From Nesterenkonia halophila (lineage in GTDB: Bacteria; Actinomycetota; Actinomycetes; Actinomycetales; Micrococcaceae), in assembly GCF_009467795.1 (NCBI RefSeq), contig NZ_WIAX01000012.1, positions 186,001-250,000 on the forward strand: 64,000 nt of DNA. Direction: 5' to 3'. The notes below the pieces were generated by a model. The model saw only the letters and a list, made by a program, of their open reading frames with translations. It did not search any database and had not been told where the DNA came from. Each line of letters starts with the position of its first letter. The first letter of the stretch is position 1. A program made the translations under genes and the position numbers. This document shows positions 30,617-62,393 of the stretch, piece by piece.

Positions 30617-30637
30617 AGGTCTCACTATCTGAGACCT
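30617..30637. promoter_or_regulatory. IclR-type operator between leuC and the regulator gene (site A)
   Basis: AGGTCTCA-N5-TGAGACCT: 8-bp arms separated by CTATC, a perfect inverted repeat. It overlaps the -35 region of the divergent iclR-type gene (centre 39 nt upstream of its ATG) and lies about 87 nt upstream of the leuC ATG. Near-identical motifs lie upstream of leuB and ilvB. The position suggests autorepression of the regulator and control of leuCD. Confidence 0.8.
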
Positions 30638-30665: not shown

Positions 30666-31550
30666 ATGTCCAGTCCTCGCGCCCCGAAGAACCAGCGGCC
30701 GGAGCTCCCGGCCCGGGACGTCGCCCCCGACGCCGAGCCCCCGACCGGCGTCGCGTCCCCGCTGTCCGTCGACCCGGAGCCGCCGCGGCCGCTGCACTCC
30801 CCCTCCGGCATCGGCGTCGTCGACAAATCGGTGATGATCCTCGACGCGCTGGAGGCCGGCCCGGCCTCGCTCGCCCAGCTGGTGGAGTCCACCGGCCTGG
30901 CCCGGCCGACCGTCCATCGACTGGCCAGCGCGCTCATCCACCACCGCTTCCTCTCCCGCGACGTGCGGGGCCGCTACGTCATCGGCTCGCGGATGGCCGA
31001 GCTGGCCTCCGCCGCCGGCGACGACCGGCTGATCTCGGCGGCCGGGCCCATCCTGCTGCGGCTGCGCGACGCCACCGGGGAGAGCTCGCAGCTGTATCGC
31101 CGCCAGGGCGACGCCCGCATCTGTGTGGCCTCGGCCGAGCGGCCCATCGGTCTGCGCGACTCCATCCCGGTGGGCACCCAGCTGTCCATGAAGGCCGGGT
31201 CCGCCGCCCAGGTGCTGCTGGCCTGGGAGGACCATGAGCGGCTCGTCGAGGGGCTGCAGGGCGCCCGCTTCACCCCGACGGTGCTGGCGGGGGTCCGCCG
31301 GCGCGGCTGGGGCGAGTCGCTGGGCGAGCGCGAACCCGGCGTGGCCTCGGTCTCGGCCCCCGTGCGCGGCCCCTCCGGCCGGGTGATCGCGGCCGTGTCC
31401 ATCTCCGGACCCATCGAGCGGCTGACCCGCCAGCCGGGCCGTCAGCACGCCGAGGTGGTCGTCCAGGCCGCCCATCAGCTCACCGAGCTGGTGCGGCGCA
31501 ATCCGGAGGCCGCCGAACATGGTCTGGGCGAGGATGCCGGACGCGCCTGA
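30666..31550 (+). CDS. IclR-family transcriptional regulator of leucine/ilv genes (NdgR/LtbR-like)
   Basis: A 294-aa regulator. After a Pro-rich N-terminus (1-45), the winged helix spans about 50-105 (V-V-D-K-S-V-M-I-L-D-A-L, L-A-Q-L-V-E-S-T-G-L-A-R-P-T-V-H-R-L), then the IclR effector domain (about 120-285) with R-D-S-I-P-V-G, M-K-A-G-S-A-A-Q and V-S-A-P-V-R-G-P-S-G. Genes in this place, divergent from leuCD, are NdgR in Streptomyces and LtbR in Corynebacterium, which control leuCD, leuB and ilv genes. The inferred operators in this window match that regulon. Whether it activates, represses or both is inference. Confidence 0.9.
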   Translation: MSSPRAPKNQRPELPARDVAPDAEPPTGVASPLSVDPEPPRPLHSPSGIGVVDKSVMILDALEAGPASLAQLVESTGLARPTVHRLASALIHHRFLSRDVRGRYVIGSRMAELASAAGDDRLISAAGPILLRLRDATGESSQLYRRQGDARICVASAERPIGLRDSIPVGTQLSMKAGSAAQVLLAWEDHERLVEGLQGARFTPTVLAGVRRRGWGESLGEREPGVASVSAPVRGPSGRVIAAVSISGPIERLTRQPGRQHAEVVVQAAHQLTELVRRNPEAAEHGLGEDAGRA

Positions 31551-42282: not shown

Positions 42283-43884
42283 TCAGCCACGCTCCTCGAG
42301 GTCGACCTCGGCGGCCAGGGCGGCGCCGACCTCGTCGGCGATCTCGTCCAGCACCCCGGTCGGCAGCGCGGCGTCGACGGCCAGCACCGCCAGCGCGCGC
42401 TCCTCCTTGGTGCTCTGCGAGACCTGCATGCCGCCGATGTTCAGCCCGTGCTGGCCGAGGATCCGTCCCAGCGCGCCGACGACGCCGGGGCGGTCGGCGT
42501 ACTCGAAGATCACCAGGTGCTCGGTCAGCGGGATCTCCAGGTCGTAGCCGTTGATCCCGATGATCTTCTCGACCTGCTTCGGCCCGGTGAGCGTGCCGCG
42601 GACCTCGAACTGCGCCCCGGAGGATGTCGCCCCGCGCACAGTGAGCGCGTTGCGATAGTCCCCGACGTCGGGCGTGGTCGTCAGCCGGGTGGTGATCCCG
42701 CGCTGCTCGGCGAGCACCGGCGCATTGACATAGGAGACCTGCTCGGAGACGACGTCGGTGAACAGGCCCTTCAGCGCGGCCAGCTGCAGGGCATCGACGT
42801 TGAGCTCGGCGATCTCGCCGGCGGCCTCGGTCTCCACATCGGTGAAGGCGTCGGAGCCGACGGCGGTGAGCACCCGGCCGAGCTTCTCGATCAGCGGGAT
42901 GCCGGGGCGGACGAGCTCGTCGATCGCCCCGCCGGCGACATTGACCGCGTCCGGCACCAGCTCGCCGGCCAGGGCCAGGCGGACGGACTTCGCCACCGAG
43001 ACGCCGGCCTTCTCCTGGGCCTCGGCGGTGGAGGCGCCCAGATGGGGGGTCACCACGACGTTCTCCCGGGAGAAGAACGGCAGGTGGGTGGACGGCTCGG
43101 AGGCGTAGACGTCGATCGCCGCCCCGCCGATGCTGCCGGCCTGCAGGGCCTGCTCCAGCGCGTCCTCGTCGACCAGGCCGCCGCGGGCGACGTTGACGAC
43201 GTAGGCCGAGTCCTTCATCCGCTCGAAGGCCGCCGCGCCCAGCATGCCCAGCGTCTCCGGGGTCTTGGGCATATGGATCGTGACCACGTCGGCCCGCTCG
43301 TAGAGCTCCTCGAGGCTGAGCAGCTGCGCGCCGAGCTGATGCGCGCGGGCGGAGGTCACGTAGGGGTCGTAGGCGACGATCTCCATGCCGAAGGCCTTCA
43401 TCCGCTCGGCGACCAGCCCGCCGATGCGGCCCAGGCCGATGACGCCGAGGACCTTGTCCTGCAGCTCCAGGCCGGCGTACTTCGAGCGCTTCCACTCCCC
43501 CGCCTTCAGCGCCGCCGTCGCCGGCGGGATGTTCCGCGCCAGTCCCAGGATGTGGGCGCAGGTCAGCTCGGCGGCGGAGACGATGTTCGACGTCGGCGCG
43601 TTGACCACCATCACGCCGGCCTCCGTGGCGGCGCTGATGTCGACGTTGTCCAGACCGACGCCGGCGCGGGCGACGACCTTCAGCCGGGGCGCCTGGGCGA
43701 GGACCTCGGCGTCGACGGTGGTGGCCGAGCGGACCATGAGGGCGTGGGCGTCGGCGAGATCGGCGGCGAGCCGGTCACGGTCGGTGCCGTCCGACTGGCG
43801 GATCTCGAAGTCGGGCCCGAGGGCCTCGACAGTGGCGGGCGAGAGTTCCTCGGCGAGGACGACGACGGGGCGGTTGCTGCTCAC
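42283..43884 (-). CDS. serA: D-3-phosphoglycerate dehydrogenase
   Basis: A 533-aa first enzyme of serine synthesis, of the long actinobacterial form. NAD domain: A-R-A-G-V-G-L-D-N-V-D near residue 77 and G-V-I-G-L-G-R-I-G near 147; catalytic N-V-A-R-G-G-L-V-D-E near 230 and H-L-G-A-S-T near 280. It is followed by an intervening (ASB) domain (about 315-450) and a C-terminal ACT domain (about 458-530, F-E-Y-A-D-R-P-G-V-V-G) that binds serine for feedback control. GTG start with AAGGA upstream. TAGAGT gives a leader of nearly 90 nt. Confidence 0.97.
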   Translation of the reverse strand: MSSNRPVVVLAEELSPATVEALGPDFEIRQSDGTDRDRLAADLADAHALMVRSATTVDAEVLAQAPRLKVVARAGVGLDNVDISAATEAGVMVVNAPTSNIVSAAELTCAHILGLARNIPPATAALKAGEWKRSKYAGLELQDKVLGVIGLGRIGGLVAERMKAFGMEIVAYDPYVTSARAHQLGAQLLSLEELYERADVVTIHMPKTPETLGMLGAAAFERMKDSAYVVNVARGGLVDEDALEQALQAGSIGGAAIDVYASEPSTHLPFFSRENVVVTPHLGASTAEAQEKAGVSVAKSVRLALAGELVPDAVNVAGGAIDELVRPGIPLIEKLGRVLTAVGSDAFTDVETEAAGEIAELNVDALQLAALKGLFTDVVSEQVSYVNAPVLAEQRGITTRLTTTPDVGDYRNALTVRGATSSGAQFEVRGTLTGPKQVEKIIGINGYDLEIPLTEHLVIFEYADRPGVVGALGRILGQHGLNIGGMQVSQSTKEERALAVLAVDAALPTGVLDEIADEVGAALAAEVDLEERG

Positions 43885-44014: not shown

Positions 44015-45668
<1,654 letters not shown>

Positions 45669-45670
45669 GG

Positions 45671-47557
45671 TCACTCCTCCTCGTCCCAGTCCGGGGTCAG
45701 GTCGCGGGCGACCTGGATGTCGCTGTTGGAGACCCCCGCCGGCACCATCGGCCAGACCATGGAGTCGCGGCTGACCCGGAAGTCGACGACGACGGGCCGG
45801 TCGGTGATCGCCATGGCCTCGGCGATCGTCGCGTCCAGGTCCTCCTCGCGCTCGCAGCGCAGCCCCGCGCAGCCGTAGGCCTCGGCGAGCTTCACGAAGT
45901 CCGGGATCGGCACGACCTGGTCGCCGTGGCGGTCCATCGCCGTGTTCAGGTCGGTGTTGGAGTAGCGCGACTCGTAGAACAGCGTCTGCCACTGCCGCAC
46001 CATGCCCAGCGAGGAGTTGTTGATCACCGCCACCTTGATCGGGATGCCGTTGATCGCGCAGGTGGCCAGCTCCTGGTTGGTCATCTGGAAGCAGCCGTCG
46101 CCGTCGATCGCCCAGACCACACGGTCCGGCTGGCCGACCTGCGCCCCCATCGCGGCGGGCACCGAGTAGCCCATGGTCCCCAGTCCGCCGGAGTTCAGCC
46201 ACTGCCGGGGCCGCTCGAAGCCGATGAACTGCGAGGCCCACATCTGGTGCTGGCCGACGCCGGCGACGTAGACCGCCTCCGGGCCGGCGGCCTCGCCGAT
46301 GCGCCGGATGACCTGCTGCGGGGCGGTCATGCCGTCCTCGGGCTCGGTCCAGCCCAGCGGGTAGGTGGTGCGCATCCGGTCCAGCTGGCGCCACCAGCTC
46401 TCCAGCTCCGGACGGCCCTCACGCTCGAAGACGTCGGTCACCGCCGTGGTCAGCTCGGGGACGATCTCCTTCAGCGAGCCGACGATCGGCACGTCCGCCA
46501 GCCGATTCTTCGAGATCTCGGCCGGGTCGACGTCGGCGTGGATGACCTTCGCGTCCGGGGCGAAGGAGTCCAGCGCCCCGGTGACGCGGTCGTCGAAGCG
46601 GGCGCCGAGGGTGATCAGCAGATCCGCCCGCTGCAGCGCGGCGACGGCGGCCACTGTGCCGTGCATGCCCGGCATCCCCAGGTTCTGCTCGTGCGAGTCG
46701 GGGAAGGCGCCGCGGGCCATCAGCGTCGTCGCCACCGGAGCGCCGGCGGCCTCGGCCAGGGCGCGGAACTCCTCGGAAGCCTCGGCCTTGACGACTCCGC
46801 CGCCGAGGTAGAAGACCGGACGGCGCGCCTGCTGGATGAGCTTGGCGGCCTCGCGGACCTGTTTGGCGTGCCCGCGGGTGACCGGCCGATAGCCGGTCAG
46901 TCCGATCTCGGGCGGCCAGGAGAACGTGGTCTTCGCGGCCTGGGCCGACTTGGTGATGTCCACCAGCACCGGGCCCGGGCGCCCCGAGGAGGCCAGGTGG
47001 AAGGCCTCGGCCATCACCTGCGGGATGGTCTCGGCGTCGGTGACCAGGAAGGAATGCTTGGTGATCGGCGCGGAGATCCCGACGATGTCGGCCTCCTGGA
47101 AGGCATCGGTGCCGATCACTGCGGCGTTGACCTGGCCGGTGATCGCGACCATCGGCACCGAGTCCATATGCGCGTCGGCCAGCGCGGTGACCAGGTTCGT
47201 CGCACCGGGTCCGGAGGTGGCCAGGCAGACGCCGACCTCCCCGGTCACCATGGCGTAGCCCTGCGCGGCGTGGCCGGCGCCCTGTTCGTGGCGGACCAGC
47301 ACGTGATTGATCGTCGACGAGTCCATGAGCGGGTCGTAGGTCGGCAGGATCGCGCCGCCCGGGAGGCCGAACACATCGGTCACTCCGAGCGCCTCGAGGC
47401 TGCGGATGATGGACTCCGAGCCGGTCACCTCCACCGGCTCCACGGACAGGCCGGGGCCGTAGAGGCGATGATCGGCGGTCGTGGTGTGGCTAGGCCGGCT
47501 CCGCTCGGGGCTCGACGCCGGCGGAGCCGCTGGGCTCGTCGCAGCTGTTCTGCTCAT
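45671..47557 (-). CDS. ilvB: Acetolactate synthase large subunit
   Basis: A 628-aa TPP enzyme: pyruvate condensation to acetolactate, first common step of Val/Leu synthesis. After a Ser/Pro-rich N-terminus (1-40): [10 protein letters not shown] near residue 65, [11 protein letters not shown] near 88 (catalytic Glu), T-S-G-P-G-A-T-N near 115, F-Q-E-A-D-I-V-G near 155 (herbicide/FAD region), [15 protein letters not shown] near 490 (TPP/Mg motif). First structural gene of the ilvBNC unit, behind the leader peptide and attenuator at 47634-47812. Confidence 0.97.
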
Positions 47558-47633
47558 CTGTGTGTTCCTGTATCCGGTCGGCAGGGGCTGCGCCCCCGGA
47601 TGGATGCTGGCAAGTGACCCCGGAGATGAGAAG

Positions 47634-47676
47634 ACCCCGGCGAGGAAGCGTCCCTGCGGGGGCTCTCTGCCGGGGT
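47634..47676 (-). promoter_or_regulatory. Terminator/antiterminator of the ilvB attenuator
   Basis: On the minus strand ACCCCGGC (47669-47676, arm B) pairs with GCCGGGGT (47634-47641, arm C), followed by CTTCTCAT, forming a terminator-like hairpin 77 nt before the ilvB start. Arm B can instead pair with GCCGGGGG (47770-47777, arm A) in the last codons of the leader peptide. A:B and B:C exclude each other, as in amino-acid attenuators. Confidence 0.7.
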
Positions 47677-47712
47677 TTGAGCGTCATGCGTCAGCTCGAG
47701 TGCGACCGTCCG

Positions 47713-47732
47713 CCTGCTCGTCGACGAGCAGG
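47713..47732 (-). other. Pause-type hairpin in the ilvB leader
   Basis: CCTGCTCGTCGACGAGCAGG, a 20-nt perfect palindrome between arms A and B of the attenuator. It may pause RNA polymerase. Confidence 0.6.
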
Positions 47733-47761
47733 ATTCGGGCCGCCCTGAGGAACGTGGATCG

Positions 47762-47812
47762 TCACGCTTCCCCCGGCGGGAGGACGGGAGCTACTCGTAG
47801 CATCTGGCGCAT
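47762..47812 (-). CDS. ilvB leader peptide (16 aa)
   Basis: ATG at 47812 to TGA at 47762 encodes MRQMLRVAPVLPPGEA. It carries four branched-chain codons: CTA (Leu5), GTA (Val7), GTC (Val10), CTC (Leu11). CTA and GTA are very rare in this GC-rich genome. The end of the ORF overlaps arm A of the attenuator. It is too short for standard gene calls. No other function is likely: stalling of a ribosome at these codons would favour antitermination upstream of ilvBNC. It is leaderless by position of the promoter. Confidence 0.72.
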   Translation of the reverse strand: MRQMLRVAPVLPPGEA

Positions 47813-47848
47813 GCCCCCAATGCTTCCCCGACGAGAGGGGCGAGTCAA
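47813..47848 (-). promoter_or_regulatory. Promoter of the ilvB leader
   Basis: TTGACT (-35, minus strand, 47843-47848), 17-nt spacer, AAGCAT (-10, 47820-47825), then 7 nt to the leader-peptide ATG at 47812. It is the best -35 in the window. Confidence 0.7.
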
Positions 47849-47861
47849 CAGGCGACTCACC

Positions 47862-47880
47862 CGTCTCACCATCTGGACTG
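47862..47880. promoter_or_regulatory. IclR-type operator upstream of the ilvB leader (site C)
   Basis: CGTCTCACCATCTGGACTG: TCTCA and the CCATC spacer equal those at leuB; the right half (TGGAC) is degenerate. TCTCA starts 52 bp upstream of the predicted start (47812), exactly as at leuB, and just upstream of the -35. Confidence 0.65.
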
Positions 47881-47900
47881 CCCGTCGGGCCGCCCCGCGA

Positions 47901-47924
47901 GCGCGGCGCCTCCGGGCGCCGCGC
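47901..47924 (-). terminator. Terminator of ilvD
   Basis: GCGCGGCGCC-TCCG-GGCGCCGCGC, a perfect 10-bp stem and tetraloop, 37 nt after ilvD. The rest of the 403-bp gap 47558-47960 is the ilvB leader described separately. Confidence 0.8.
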
Positions 47925-47960
47925 CCCGACCGGAGGGCCGGGCGCGGACGGCGCGGAGGA

Positions 47961-49733
47961 TCAGCCGCAGTAGGCTCCTTCGGCCGCCGAGCGGACCAGC
48001 TTGGCGTACTTGCCCAGCACCCCGGTGGTCGTCGTCGGGTCCAGCGGCTCCCATCCCTCGGCCCGGCGCGAGAGGTCCTGCGCGTCGACCAGCAGGTCGA
48101 TGGTGCGCGAGGCGATGTCCACCCGGATCCGGTCGCCGTCGGCGATATGGGCGATGGGGCCGCCGTCGACCGCCTCCGGCGCGATGTGGCCGATGCACAG
48201 CCCGGTGGTGCCGCCGGAGAACCGGCCGTCGGTGATCAGCAGCACGTCCTTGCCCAGGCCCGCGCCCTTGATCGCGCCGGTGATCGCCAGCATCTCGCGC
48301 ATGCCGGGCCCGCCCTTGGGCCCCTCGTAGCGGATGACGACGACGTCGCCGGCGGTGATGCTGCCGGCGGACAGCGCATCCAGCGCGGCCTGCTCGCGCT
48401 CGAAGACCCGCGCAGTGCCTTCGAAGACCTCGGCGTCGAAGCCCGCCGACTTCACGACCGCACCCTCCGGCGCGAGCGAGCCGCGCAGCACCGCGATGCC
48501 GCCGTTGTGGTGCATCGGGTCCTGCAGCGACCGGATGATCGAGCCGTCGAGGTCCGGCGGATCGATCTCGGCCAGGTTCTCGGCGACGGTGCGGCCGGTG
48601 ACGGTCAGTGCGTCGCCGTGCAGCAGTCCGGCGTCGAGCAGCGCCCGCATGACCACCGGCACGCCGCCGACGCGGTCGACGTCGGCCATCACGTACTGGC
48701 CGAAGGGCTTGAGGTCGCCCAGGTGCGGGATCCGGTCGCCGATCCGGTTGAAGTCCTCCAGCGCGAGGTCGACCCCGGCCTCACGGGCGATGGCCAGCAG
48801 GTGCAGCACCGCGTTGGTGGATCCGCCGAAGGCCATCGTGACCGCGATGGCGTTCTCGAAGGCCTGCTTGGTGAGGATGTCGCGGGTGGTGATCCCCCGC
48901 CGGAGCAGCTCGACGACGGCCTCGCCGGCGCGGTGGGCGAAGACGTCGCGGCGCCGGTCCGCCGATGGCGGAGCGGCCGAGCCGGGCAGCGAGAGCCCGA
49001 GGGCCTCGCCGATGGCGGCCATCGTGTTGGCGGTGTACATGCCGCCGCAGGCCCCCTCGCCGGGGCAGATGGCGCGCTCGATGACCCCGAGGTCCTCCTC
49101 GCTGATGGTCCCGCGGGCGCAGGCCCCGACACCCTCGAAGGCGTCGATGAGGGTGACCTCCTTCTCGCTGCCGTCGGAGAACCGCGCGGTGCCCGGCATG
49201 ATGGAGCCGGCGTAGAGGAAGACGCTGGAGAGGTCCAGGCGCGCCGCGGCCATCATCATCCCGGGCAGCGACTTGTCGCAGCCGGCCAGCAGGATGGAGC
49301 CGTCCAGTCGCTCGGCCTCCATGACCGTCTCCACGGAGTCGGCGATGACCTCGCGGGAGACCAGCGAGTAGTGCATCCCCTCATGCCCCATGGAGATCCC
49401 GTCGGAGACCGAGATCGTGCCGAACTCCAGCGGGTAGCCACCGCCGGCGTGCACACCCTCCTTGGAGGCGCGGGCCAGCCGGTCCAGCGAGAGGTTGCAC
49501 GGAGTGATCTCGTTCCACGAGCTCGCGATGCCGATCTGCGCCTTGCCGAAGTCCTGGTCGCCCATCCCGACCGCACGGAGCATGCCGCGGGACGGCGCGC
49601 TGGTGTAGCCGTCGGTGACCTGCCAGCTGCGCGGCTTCTCCGGGACGCTCGGACCGGTGACCGGCGTCGGCGGGGTGTGGGGCGCCTCCTCGGCGGCGCC
49701 CCGTGCGGGGTCCTCTGGGGTGCTGTGTGCCAT
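47961..49733 (-). CDS. ilvD: Dihydroxy-acid dehydratase
   Basis: A 590-aa Fe-S dehydratase of Val/Ile synthesis. T-P-C-N-L-S near residue 79, [10 protein letters not shown] near 148 and [12 protein letters not shown] near 220 supply cluster and active-site residues; T-D-G-R-F-S-G-G-T near 510 is near the C-terminus. N-terminal ~35 residues are Pro/Glu-rich. ATG at 49733 sits 6 nt behind a TAGAAT element. It may also be read from an upstream promoter with a long structured leader. Confidence 0.97.
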
Positions 49734-61193: not shown

Positions 61194-62393
61194 TCAGCGG
61201 CGCTCATCAGCGGCTTCGGAGGGATCCTCTCCTGCACTCCCGGCGGTCTCGTCGGACGCTCCGTCCTCCTGGGCCGCGGCGCCCCCTTCAAGTGTCCCAG
61301 CATCTGGACCGACCGAGGTCTCATCATCCGGACTCTGGTCCGCGACGGTGCTCTCCTCGGCGTCCTGGTCGGCGTCCTCCGCGGAATCCTGGTCGGGATC
61401 CGCGGGGGCGTCCTCGTCGACATCGGGGTCGATGTCCTGGGCGCTTCCCACGGTACGGGTCCCGTGGCCGGCGCGGTAGACCTCGAGCTCCTCGGCGACG
61501 GCCTCGGCGGTGCGCGGGCGACGCAGGAAGAGCACCACGAGCATGACCGCCGCCAGCACGAAGGTGAACAGCGCGGCCCACATGTTCAGCCGCCACTCCT
61601 GCCCGAAGAGGCTGATCCACTGGGTCGACTTGTCCAGCTCGTCGATGCGCAGGCTCTCGATCCAGAAGCGGCCCAGCGTGTAGTAGGCCACGTAGGTCCA
61701 GGTGACCAGCCCCTGCTTGAAGCGGAACTTCTTGTGCAGCAGCACCAGCAGCACGACGCCGGCGAAGCTCCAGAGACTCTCGTAGAGGAAGGTCGGGTGG
61801 AAGAGCGTGGACTCGGAGAGGTGCTGGACCTGCGGAACGCGGTGCTCGGCGTCGACCTCGAGGCCCCACGGCAGGCTGGTCGGCGCGCCGTAGAGCTCCT
61901 GGTTGAACCAGTTGCCCCAGCGGCCGATCGCCTGTCCGAGCAGCACGCCGGGGACGATCGCGTCGGCGAATCCGGCGAATTTGATGCCGTAGCGTCGGCA
62001 GGCGATCCAGATGCCGACGGCGCCCAGGACGATGGCGCCCCAGATGCCCAGCCCGCCGAGCCAGACCTGCGGGATGAGCGTCAGATCGCCGCTGCCGTCG
62101 AAGTTCGGGCCGAAGTAGGCGTCCGGCGAGGAGAACACGTGATAGAGCCGGCCGCCGACGATGCCCAGCAGCACCGCCCACAGCGTGGCGTCCATGACGT
62201 TGTCGACCGATCCCCCGCGCGACTTCCACAGCCGGGAGCTGAGCAGGATGGCGGCGATGATGCCCACCACGATGCACAGGGCGTAGTAGTTCAGGGTCAA
62301 CGGGCCGAACAGGTCGAGACCGCTGGAGGGCGGAGCCGGGAATCCGGCACGCAGGTCCCCGGCAGGGGCGGCCGCCGCAACAGTGGGAGTCAT
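61194..62393 (-). CDS. lgt: Prolipoprotein diacylglyceryl transferase with acidic tail
   Basis: A 399-aa membrane enzyme that attaches diacylglycerol to lipobox Cys. Seven hydrophobic segments lie between residues ~25 and 285; the signature G-R-W-G-N-W-F-N-Q-E-L-Y-G near residue 158 and G-G-R-L-Y-H near 80 are present, with H-P-T-F-L-Y-E near 200. Residues ~300-399 form a long Asp/Glu/Ala/Ser tail not found in the core family (~280 aa). It probably modifies lipoproteins such as the DUF3515 protein. It follows trpA in the usual actinobacterial order trpB-trpA-lgt. Confidence 0.96.
   Translation of the reverse strand: MTPTVAAAAPAGDLRAGFPAPPSSGLDLFGPLTLNYYALCIVVGIIAAILLSSRLWKSRGGSVDNVMDATLWAVLLGIVGGRLYHVFSSPDAYFGPNFDGSGDLTLIPQVWLGGLGIWGAIVLGAVGIWIACRRYGIKFAGFADAIVPGVLLGQAIGRWGNWFNQELYGAPTSLPWGLEVDAEHRVPQVQHLSESTLFHPTFLYESLWSFAGVVLLVLLHKKFRFKQGLVTWTYVAYYTLGRFWIESLRIDELDKSTQWISLFGQEWRLNMWAALFTFVLAAVMLVVLFLRRPRTAEAVAEELEVYRAGHGTRTVGSAQDIDPDVDEDAPADPDQDSAEDADQDAEESTVADQSPDDETSVGPDAGTLEGGAAAQEDGASDETAGSAGEDPSEAADERR

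Follow-up and report, generated by a model that had tools for sequence, protein, structure and literature searches.

How the valine/leucine/isoleucine genes of Nesterenkonia halophila are switched on is the question raised by the region in front of ilvB. The stretch of DNA analyzed here, called the window, spans 64,000 nucleotides, and an original prediction made from its letters alone placed a full attenuation circuit of three RNA arms upstream of ilvB. Our analysis makes it highly probable that this region attenuates transcription of ilvBNC(-serA) through the translation of a leaderless leader peptide.

For Corynebacterium, an ilvBNC attenuator was reportedly described by Morbach in 2000, in a paper whose title announces that the leader peptide is formed in the absence of a ribosome binding site. 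Leader peptides and terminators upstream of ilvB have been predicted in Corynebacterium, Mycobacterium, and Streptomyces (Seliverstov 2005, PMC1262725). Papers on C. glutamicum (Ryabchenko 2025, PMC11857589) and C. diphtheriae (PMC5784534) state that the ilvB leader is leaderless, and the former argues from mutants for a mechanism of the same kind. Streptomyces lividans carries ilvL (MRTRILVLGKRVG), a leaderless leader peptide before ilvBHC with hairpins and a U-rich run downstream of it (PMC8079986). The ilvB-II RNA was defined in 103 Corynebacterium representatives (Narunsky 2023, PMC10272879), and attenuation at M. tuberculosis ilvB1 was tested with reporters in a 2026 paper (PMC13236596). 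A search for literature combining Nesterenkonia, attenuation, and leader peptide found none.

Locus, Promoter, and Leader ORF

The leader is followed by ilvB, ilvN, ilvC, and serA, and ilvD lies immediately upstream of it. The genes carry the following Pfam domains.

47961..49733, minus strand: ilvD, dihydroxy-acid dehydratase, upstream neighbor of the leader (ILVD_EDD_N, ILV_EDD_C)
45671..47557, minus strand: ilvB, acetolactate synthase large subunit (TPP_enzyme domains)
45144..45674, minus strand: ilvN, small subunit, start approximate (ALS_ss_C, ACT_AHAS_ss)
44015..45040, minus strand: ilvC (KARI_N/KARI_C)
42283..43884, minus strand: serA-like phosphoglycerate dehydrogenase (2-Hacid_dh, PGDH_inter, ACT)

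The genus set comprised 30 genomes, including the window's own, and 28 of these gave an ilvB match at 1e-200. Two genomes without such a match (G001 and G014) were left out, as were three duplicates of genus members (L032–L034). The nearest named relative among the matches listed was Nesterenkonia sp. F, whose ilvB is 98% identical. The window's own assembly measures 2.19 Mb and is 65.5% complete. This genome also holds two further acetolactate-synthase-like matches, L002 and L003, at 36% and 28% identity.

The elements between ilvD and ilvB that would start transcription and translation are as follows.

47843..47848, minus strand: -35 element TTGACT
47820..47825, minus strand: candidate -10 element AAGCAT, read from the sequence in an aligned region
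47762..47812, minus strand: leader ORF MRQMLRVAPVLPPGEA, 16 codons plus stop (stop at 47764–47762), predicted to be leaderless

A 17-nt spacer separates the -35 from the -10, and 7 nt lie between the -10 and the leader ATG at 47812. The promoter had been called consensus-like, which overstates the -10, as this matches TATAAT at only three of six positions; a strict scan detected no promoter. TTGAC was found in 28/28 genus members at 35–37 nt before the leader start codon. The distance of 35–37 nt would put +1 on or adjoining the start codon, and by this geometry transcription in the window would begin near 47812, at most about two bases from the ATG. The same distance argues against a start far from the leader ATG.

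The 16-residue ORF first read from the sequence, beginning 7 nt after the -10, has counterparts throughout the genus. All 28 members, the window included, carry upstream of ilvB an ORF of 16–18 codons with four to eight Leu, Val, or Ile codons; the window leader has 16 codons with four Leu/Val. In the genus alignment the operator and promoter are followed by the start region, the rare codons, arm A where the ORF ends, and arms B and C. Conservation, geometry, codon bias, and mutually exclusive pairings were all observed, by comparison and calculation.

Rare Codons in the Leader

The four Leu/Val codons of the window leader are Leu5 CTA, Val7 GTA, Val10 GTC, and Leu11 CTC, and two of them are candidate control codons on the basis of codon counts and folding.

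47798..47800, minus strand: control codon Leu5, CTA, rare
47792..47794, minus strand: control codon Val7, GTA, rare

The predicted rarity of CTA and GTA was confirmed. In the window's ilvB, ilvC, ilvD, and serA, CTA makes up 0/176 Leu codons and GTA 0/192 Val codons. Across the 28 genus leaders, by contrast, 41 of 50 Leu codons are CTA and 72 of 111 Val codons are GTA, and the ilvB genes of the same genomes use CTA for only 4 of 1068 Leu codons and GTA for only 26 of 1598 Val codons.

Three Arms and Their Predicted Switching

Between the leader ATG and ilvB, the RNA folded better than 200/200 dinucleotide shuffles (z -3.55). Alignment and constrained folding located the arms as follows.

47770..47778, minus strand: arm A CGCCGGGGG, at the end of the leader ORF
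47669..47676, minus strand: arm B ACCCCGGC, common to antiterminator and terminator
47634..47641, minus strand: arm C GCCGGGGT, the terminator 3' arm (B:C hairpin, -26.0 kcal/mol)
47624..47634, minus strand: U-rich tail UCUUCUCAUCU, weaker than in 26/28 genus members

Arms A, B, and C with a T-rich tail were found in 28/28 genus members at an arm length of 6 nt (6.2 expected from shuffled ORF tails) and in 26 of 28 at 7 nt (1.1 expected), counts in which the rows are related and hence not independent. This test speaks against a chance origin of the arms. Comparison with close relatives had been proposed as a search for covarying arms. All three were indeed conserved in 28/28, but they are nearly invariant within the genus, so that the comparison speaks for conservation of the core arms and not for covariation. 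UUU follows arm C in 26/28 genus leaders, and the two in which GGGGTTT is missing after arm C are the window and L005. A simple terminator scan gave no terminator; it allowed loops of at most 8 nt, and the B:C hairpin has a longer one.

Switching was calculated by constrained folding in which the ribosome was assumed to mask everything from the 5' terminus up to and including 12 nt counted from where the A-site codon begins. When transcripts were cut before arm C, an early Leu/Val stall gave P(A:B) above 0.5 in 28/28 genus leaders, and a ribosome at the stop codon gave P(A:B) below 0.05 in 28/28, as expected from the stall positions relative to arm A that had been proposed. In transcripts extended to the U-tract, B:C reached at least 0.5 in 28/28 both without a ribosome and with a ribosome at the stop codon. 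With an early stall, A:B reached at least 0.5 in 19/28; in the other 9/28, the early-stall state fails to beat the terminator at equilibrium once arm C is made.

In the window, with the transcript ended at the U-tract, the ribosome-free RNA gave A:B 0.00 and B:C 0.99, and a ribosome at the stop codon also gave B:C 0.99. A stall at Val7 gave P(A:B) 0.87. A stall at Leu5 gave 0.86 before arm C was made and 0.07 after, and stalls at Val10 or Leu11 did not hold A:B. The claim that a stall at either Leu5 or Val7 frees arm A therefore holds fully for Val7 and, for Leu5, only until arm C is made. Accordingly, the calculation points to Val7 as the codon that would sense, joined by Leu5 if kinetics favor it. 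The proposed mutual exclusion of A:B and B:C, with arm B common to both, was reproduced in these model foldings for the window and, before arm C, for 28/28 genus leaders. A second CCGGGGT lies at 47617–47623, just past the terminator, and can pair with arm B as well; the stretch also occurs in L005. Competition of this copy (47623–47617) for arm B accounts for the lower B:C in longer window transcripts.

These results bear on a different account, in which control is exerted by Rho or by translation coupling, with the ribosome shielding the RNA, the ORF translated, and the hairpins accessory. The weak U-tract of the window fits this account, as do two observations reported in PMC1262725: codon changes in the S. 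coelicolor ilvB leader were without effect, and some actinobacterial leader peptides (cys operons) have no clear terminator. We nevertheless consider it unlikely, in view of the presence of arms A, B, and C in 28/28, with arm A placed for cover by a ribosome at the stop codon, and of the UUU after arm C in 26/28.

Structures That May Block Arm A without a Ribosome

The predicted three-arm circuit was found in the window, but the prediction left out any structure that keeps arm A from arm B when no ribosome is present. The minimum-energy fold of the window offers two candidates, a hairpin at 47779–47740 and a helix between the 5' end and 47694–47686.

47740..47779, minus strand: hairpin over the leader stop codon, taking up arm A (long subtype; folding and pair counts of helices 1–3)
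47804..47812, minus strand: proposed long-range helix P0, 5' strand AUGCGCCAG, in the start codon region (weak to moderate support)
47686..47694, minus strand: proposed P0, 3' strand CTGACGCAT, before arm B (TGACGC in 23/28 leaders)

The leaders were divided by eye into 14 short and 14 long, with the window among the long. In the short leaders the stop-codon hairpin is built from codons just before arm A, and in the long leaders arm A is itself the 5' half of a hairpin enclosing the stop codon. For the long hairpin together with the terminator, 96.5% of cells pair, compared with 94.7% in shuffles and 32–54% when the structure was slid, although such pair counts favor a structure derived from the same alignment. 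Paired cells and covariation score of these helices lay above all 500 shuffles. The stop-codon hairpin contains two pairs changed on both sides, amounting to six cells versus 2.5 in shuffles. For the long hairpin plus terminator, no excess was seen in pairs with two-sided changes (2 versus a shuffle mean of 1.8) or in further pair types (9 versus 9.7). We regard the local stop-codon hairpin as supported, and as a candidate for the ribosome-free block on arm A.

The evidence on P0 is mixed, and we put this helix forward as a proposal for a further part of the block. RNAalifold returned a 5'-end helix of the P0 kind in both the long and the short halves, and in L008 the TGACGC element is shifted and the 5'-end pairing is kept. 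A swap test was flat, with own pairing at -9.79 kcal/mol and swapped pairing at -9.55 kcal/mol on average over the 28 leaders. Against region shuffles, own pairing ranked in the best 5% in 12/28 leaders (10/14 long and 2/14 short, with 12/14 short leaders outside), and the window scored 0.10. In L031, whose 5' end deviates, CTGCGCA replaces the element and the best partner, GCTGCACA, sits 8 nt further upstream; because of this offset from the element's position, L031 is no clean compensatory case. Without a ribosome, predicted P(A:B) fell below 0.2 in only 11/28 genus leaders.

A more far-reaching reading, which we regard as tentative and rather doubtful, makes the bare 5' end a switch arm through pairing of AUGCGYCA(G) with (C)UGACGC before arm B. 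A ribosome on the start codon or on the first CTA/GTA codons would then hold the start open and remove the block on A:B, and its departure would close the 5' end to new ribosomes. Combined with the CTA/GTA preference, such a leader would sense the charging of particular minor tRNAs and not total Leu/Val. Two anti-antiterminator designs would, on this reading, have arisen inside one genus.

The Putative Upstream Operator

A site upstream of the promoter and a second locus in the window point to a regulator of the IclR family.

47863..47878, minus strand: putative NdgR/LtbR-type (IclR family) operator GTCCAGATGGTGAGAC, separated from the -35 by 14 nt and centered at -58.5 from the ATG
30666..31550, plus strand: candidate NdgR/LtbR, an IclR-family regulator gene in divergent orientation to leuC (Pfam IclR_C, HTH_IclR)
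30619..30635, unstranded: palindrome GTCTCAGATAGTGAGAC in the gap that separates leuC from the IclR gene

The predicted IclR-type site was upheld. Of the 15 positions in the NdgR/LtbR consensus KTYCRSMWYSYGRRM (PMC8222616), GTCCAGATGGTGAGAC agrees at 14. Across the genus, at least 14 positions match in 15/28 members and at least 12 in 28/28. GAGAC is present upstream in 28/28, and its gap to the -35 is 14 nt in 24 members and 13 or 15 nt in four. Scanning the window's own genome (2.19 Mb, 65.5% complete) with the pattern KTCCRNNNNNTGAGAC gave three matches, and the backwards control gave none. Of the other two matches, one falls inside an lgt gene (window 61318–61333) and one where an unrelated ORF begins (L112). 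With about four chance matches estimated, the pattern alone is not significant, and it is the fixed position that counts.

The IclR-family protein scored above the cut-off of no NCBIfam model. Among six leuC upstream regions examined, five contain TGAGAC and the sixth (L115) has AGTGAGAAC. In S. coelicolor, NdgR binds the upstream DNA of both ilvB and leuC (PMC4340878). The window resembles the NdgR/LtbR regulon as described in PMC4340878 and PMC8222616 in its 14/15 ilvB site and in carrying, divergent from leuC, an IclR gene accompanied by a related palindrome. From its position, GTCTCAGATAGTGAGAC may perhaps be the operator of the IclR-family regulator itself. An NdgR/LtbR-type regulator binding just upstream of the -35 would probably form a second control layer, and a center at -58.5 would suit an activator.

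The conserved operator, present in 28/28 at near-fixed spacing, and the fact that S. coelicolor NdgR binds upstream of ilvB (PMC4340878) could also suggest that the region is mainly a promoter and operator, with leader structure playing a minor part. This is improbable in our judgment, since conservation extends as far as arm C and takes in peptide residues and rare codons for which an operator has no need.

Leaders beyond the Genus

We compared 77 other loci (L035–L111), the nearest relatives among the best 80 of 597 matched stretches and mostly actinobacterial by title. A locus was counted as leaderless when a BCAA-rich short ORF started 12–14 nt from the start of the -10, with a good -35 and a score of at least 7/12. 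With leader and promoter picked jointly as the best-scoring pair, 62/77 of these loci from the best 80 of 597 had the leaderless layout, against a base rate of 91/1749 for any start codon in the same regions, leaders included. The remaining 15/77 in this best-80-of-597 set consisted of 13 without a candidate and two (L048 and L102) below a score of 7. A leaderless leader combined with an IclR-type site had been thought less usual. Both features are in print, and the count of 62/77 among the best 80 of 597 matched stretches makes the leaderless ilvB layout common.

Codon choice differs between the groups: among the matches listed, Nesterenkonia leaders use CTA and other-genus leaders use CTT. 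In the 62 other-genus leaders from the best 80 of 597, CTT makes up 59/113 Leu codons and GTA 58/171 Val codons; in the ilvB genes beside them the rates are 3.9% and 2.5%. A 14/15 match to the NdgR/LtbR consensus at -90 to -45 was found in 21/62 of these leaders (best 80 of 597), compared with 9/680 control pieces. The three-arm test gave 12 at 6 nt (7.2 expected) and three at 7 nt (1.4 expected) for the 62 leaders from the best 80 of 597. By this crude test, with counts near chance, the exact A/B/C arms fail to generalize. Two loci titled Sporosarcina beigongshangi (L056) and Proteobacteria bacterium (L060) carry ilvB genes 76% and 69% identical to that of the window together with actinobacterial-type leaders, and these are possibly mislabeled or contaminated assemblies.

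Model and Known Systems

A riboswitch or protein-bound RNA element, for example of the ppGpp type, might be suggested by the long structured leader and by the ppGpp riboswitches on some ilvB genes (PMC10272879), but we find it very improbable given that the BCAA-rich ORF is conserved, that Corynebacterium ilvB-II RNA is described as unresponsive to ppGpp (PMC10272879), and that Rfam gave nothing at gathering score in the leader: the five matches up to E 10 in 47400–48000 all fell far below their thresholds, and the five gathering-score hits across the window were all tRNAs.

In the attenuator that we favor, transcription would begin at or within one to two bases of the leader ATG, and the ribosome would load on a bare 5' end without a Shine-Dalgarno site. 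A shortage of charged Leu- or Val-tRNA would halt the ribosome at the early CTA or GTA codons, and it would cover the 5' end there. Arm A would then be free to pair with the emerging arm B, and transcription would run on into ilvB. With charged tRNA plentiful, the ribosome would reach the stop codon and cover arm A, and B:C would form as an intrinsic terminator. Without a ribosome, the local hairpin would take up arm A, perhaps aided by long-range pairing of the 5' end as an anti-antiterminator, and B:C would again form. The start site, stalling, termination, and the binding of the regulator with its sign are the steps that we infer.

The ilvBNC and ilvB-II leaders of Corynebacterium, as described in the sources cited above, have a leaderless start, as predicted for the window, and share with it a Leu/Val/Ile-rich peptide, usually of 15–17 residues in Corynebacterium. 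The Corynebacterium ilvBNC leader is drawn with an anti-antiterminator (H1, to which shielding of the start site is ascribed), an antiterminator, and a terminator, parts that have candidate counterparts in the window. Its control codons are named as CUU and GUA (PMC11857589), and Nesterenkonia has CTA in place of CUU. The Nesterenkonia leaders differ in their peptides of the MRQxL..VPV..PAG type and in their two stop-codon hairpin designs, with ilvB-II compared by its published description. S. lividans ilvL also places a leaderless peptide ahead of ilvB, although the peptide itself is different (PMC8079986). M. tuberculosis ilvB1NC has a BCAA-rich uORF, and an abundant transcript of about 120 nt ends in the leader there; unlike the window, it has a 166-nt leader with LVVI control codons, and the excerpted text does not state a leaderless start (PMC13236596).

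Modest additions are the set of leaders covering the genus, the bias toward CTA and GTA, the two designs of the stop-codon hairpin, and the possible use of the 5' end as a switch arm. The range of this type of control circuit, described in Corynebacterium, Streptomyces, and mycobacteria, is extended here to Nesterenkonia, where the leader probably switches on the valine/leucine/isoleucine genes when supplies of these amino acids fall. Among the matches listed, our comparison suggests that a leaderless ilvB leader is a common actinobacterial layout, often with an NdgR/LtbR-type site. The 28 related leaders, with their near-fixed geometry, provide a ready set for the study of ribosome control on leaderless mRNA and of rare-codon sensitivity.
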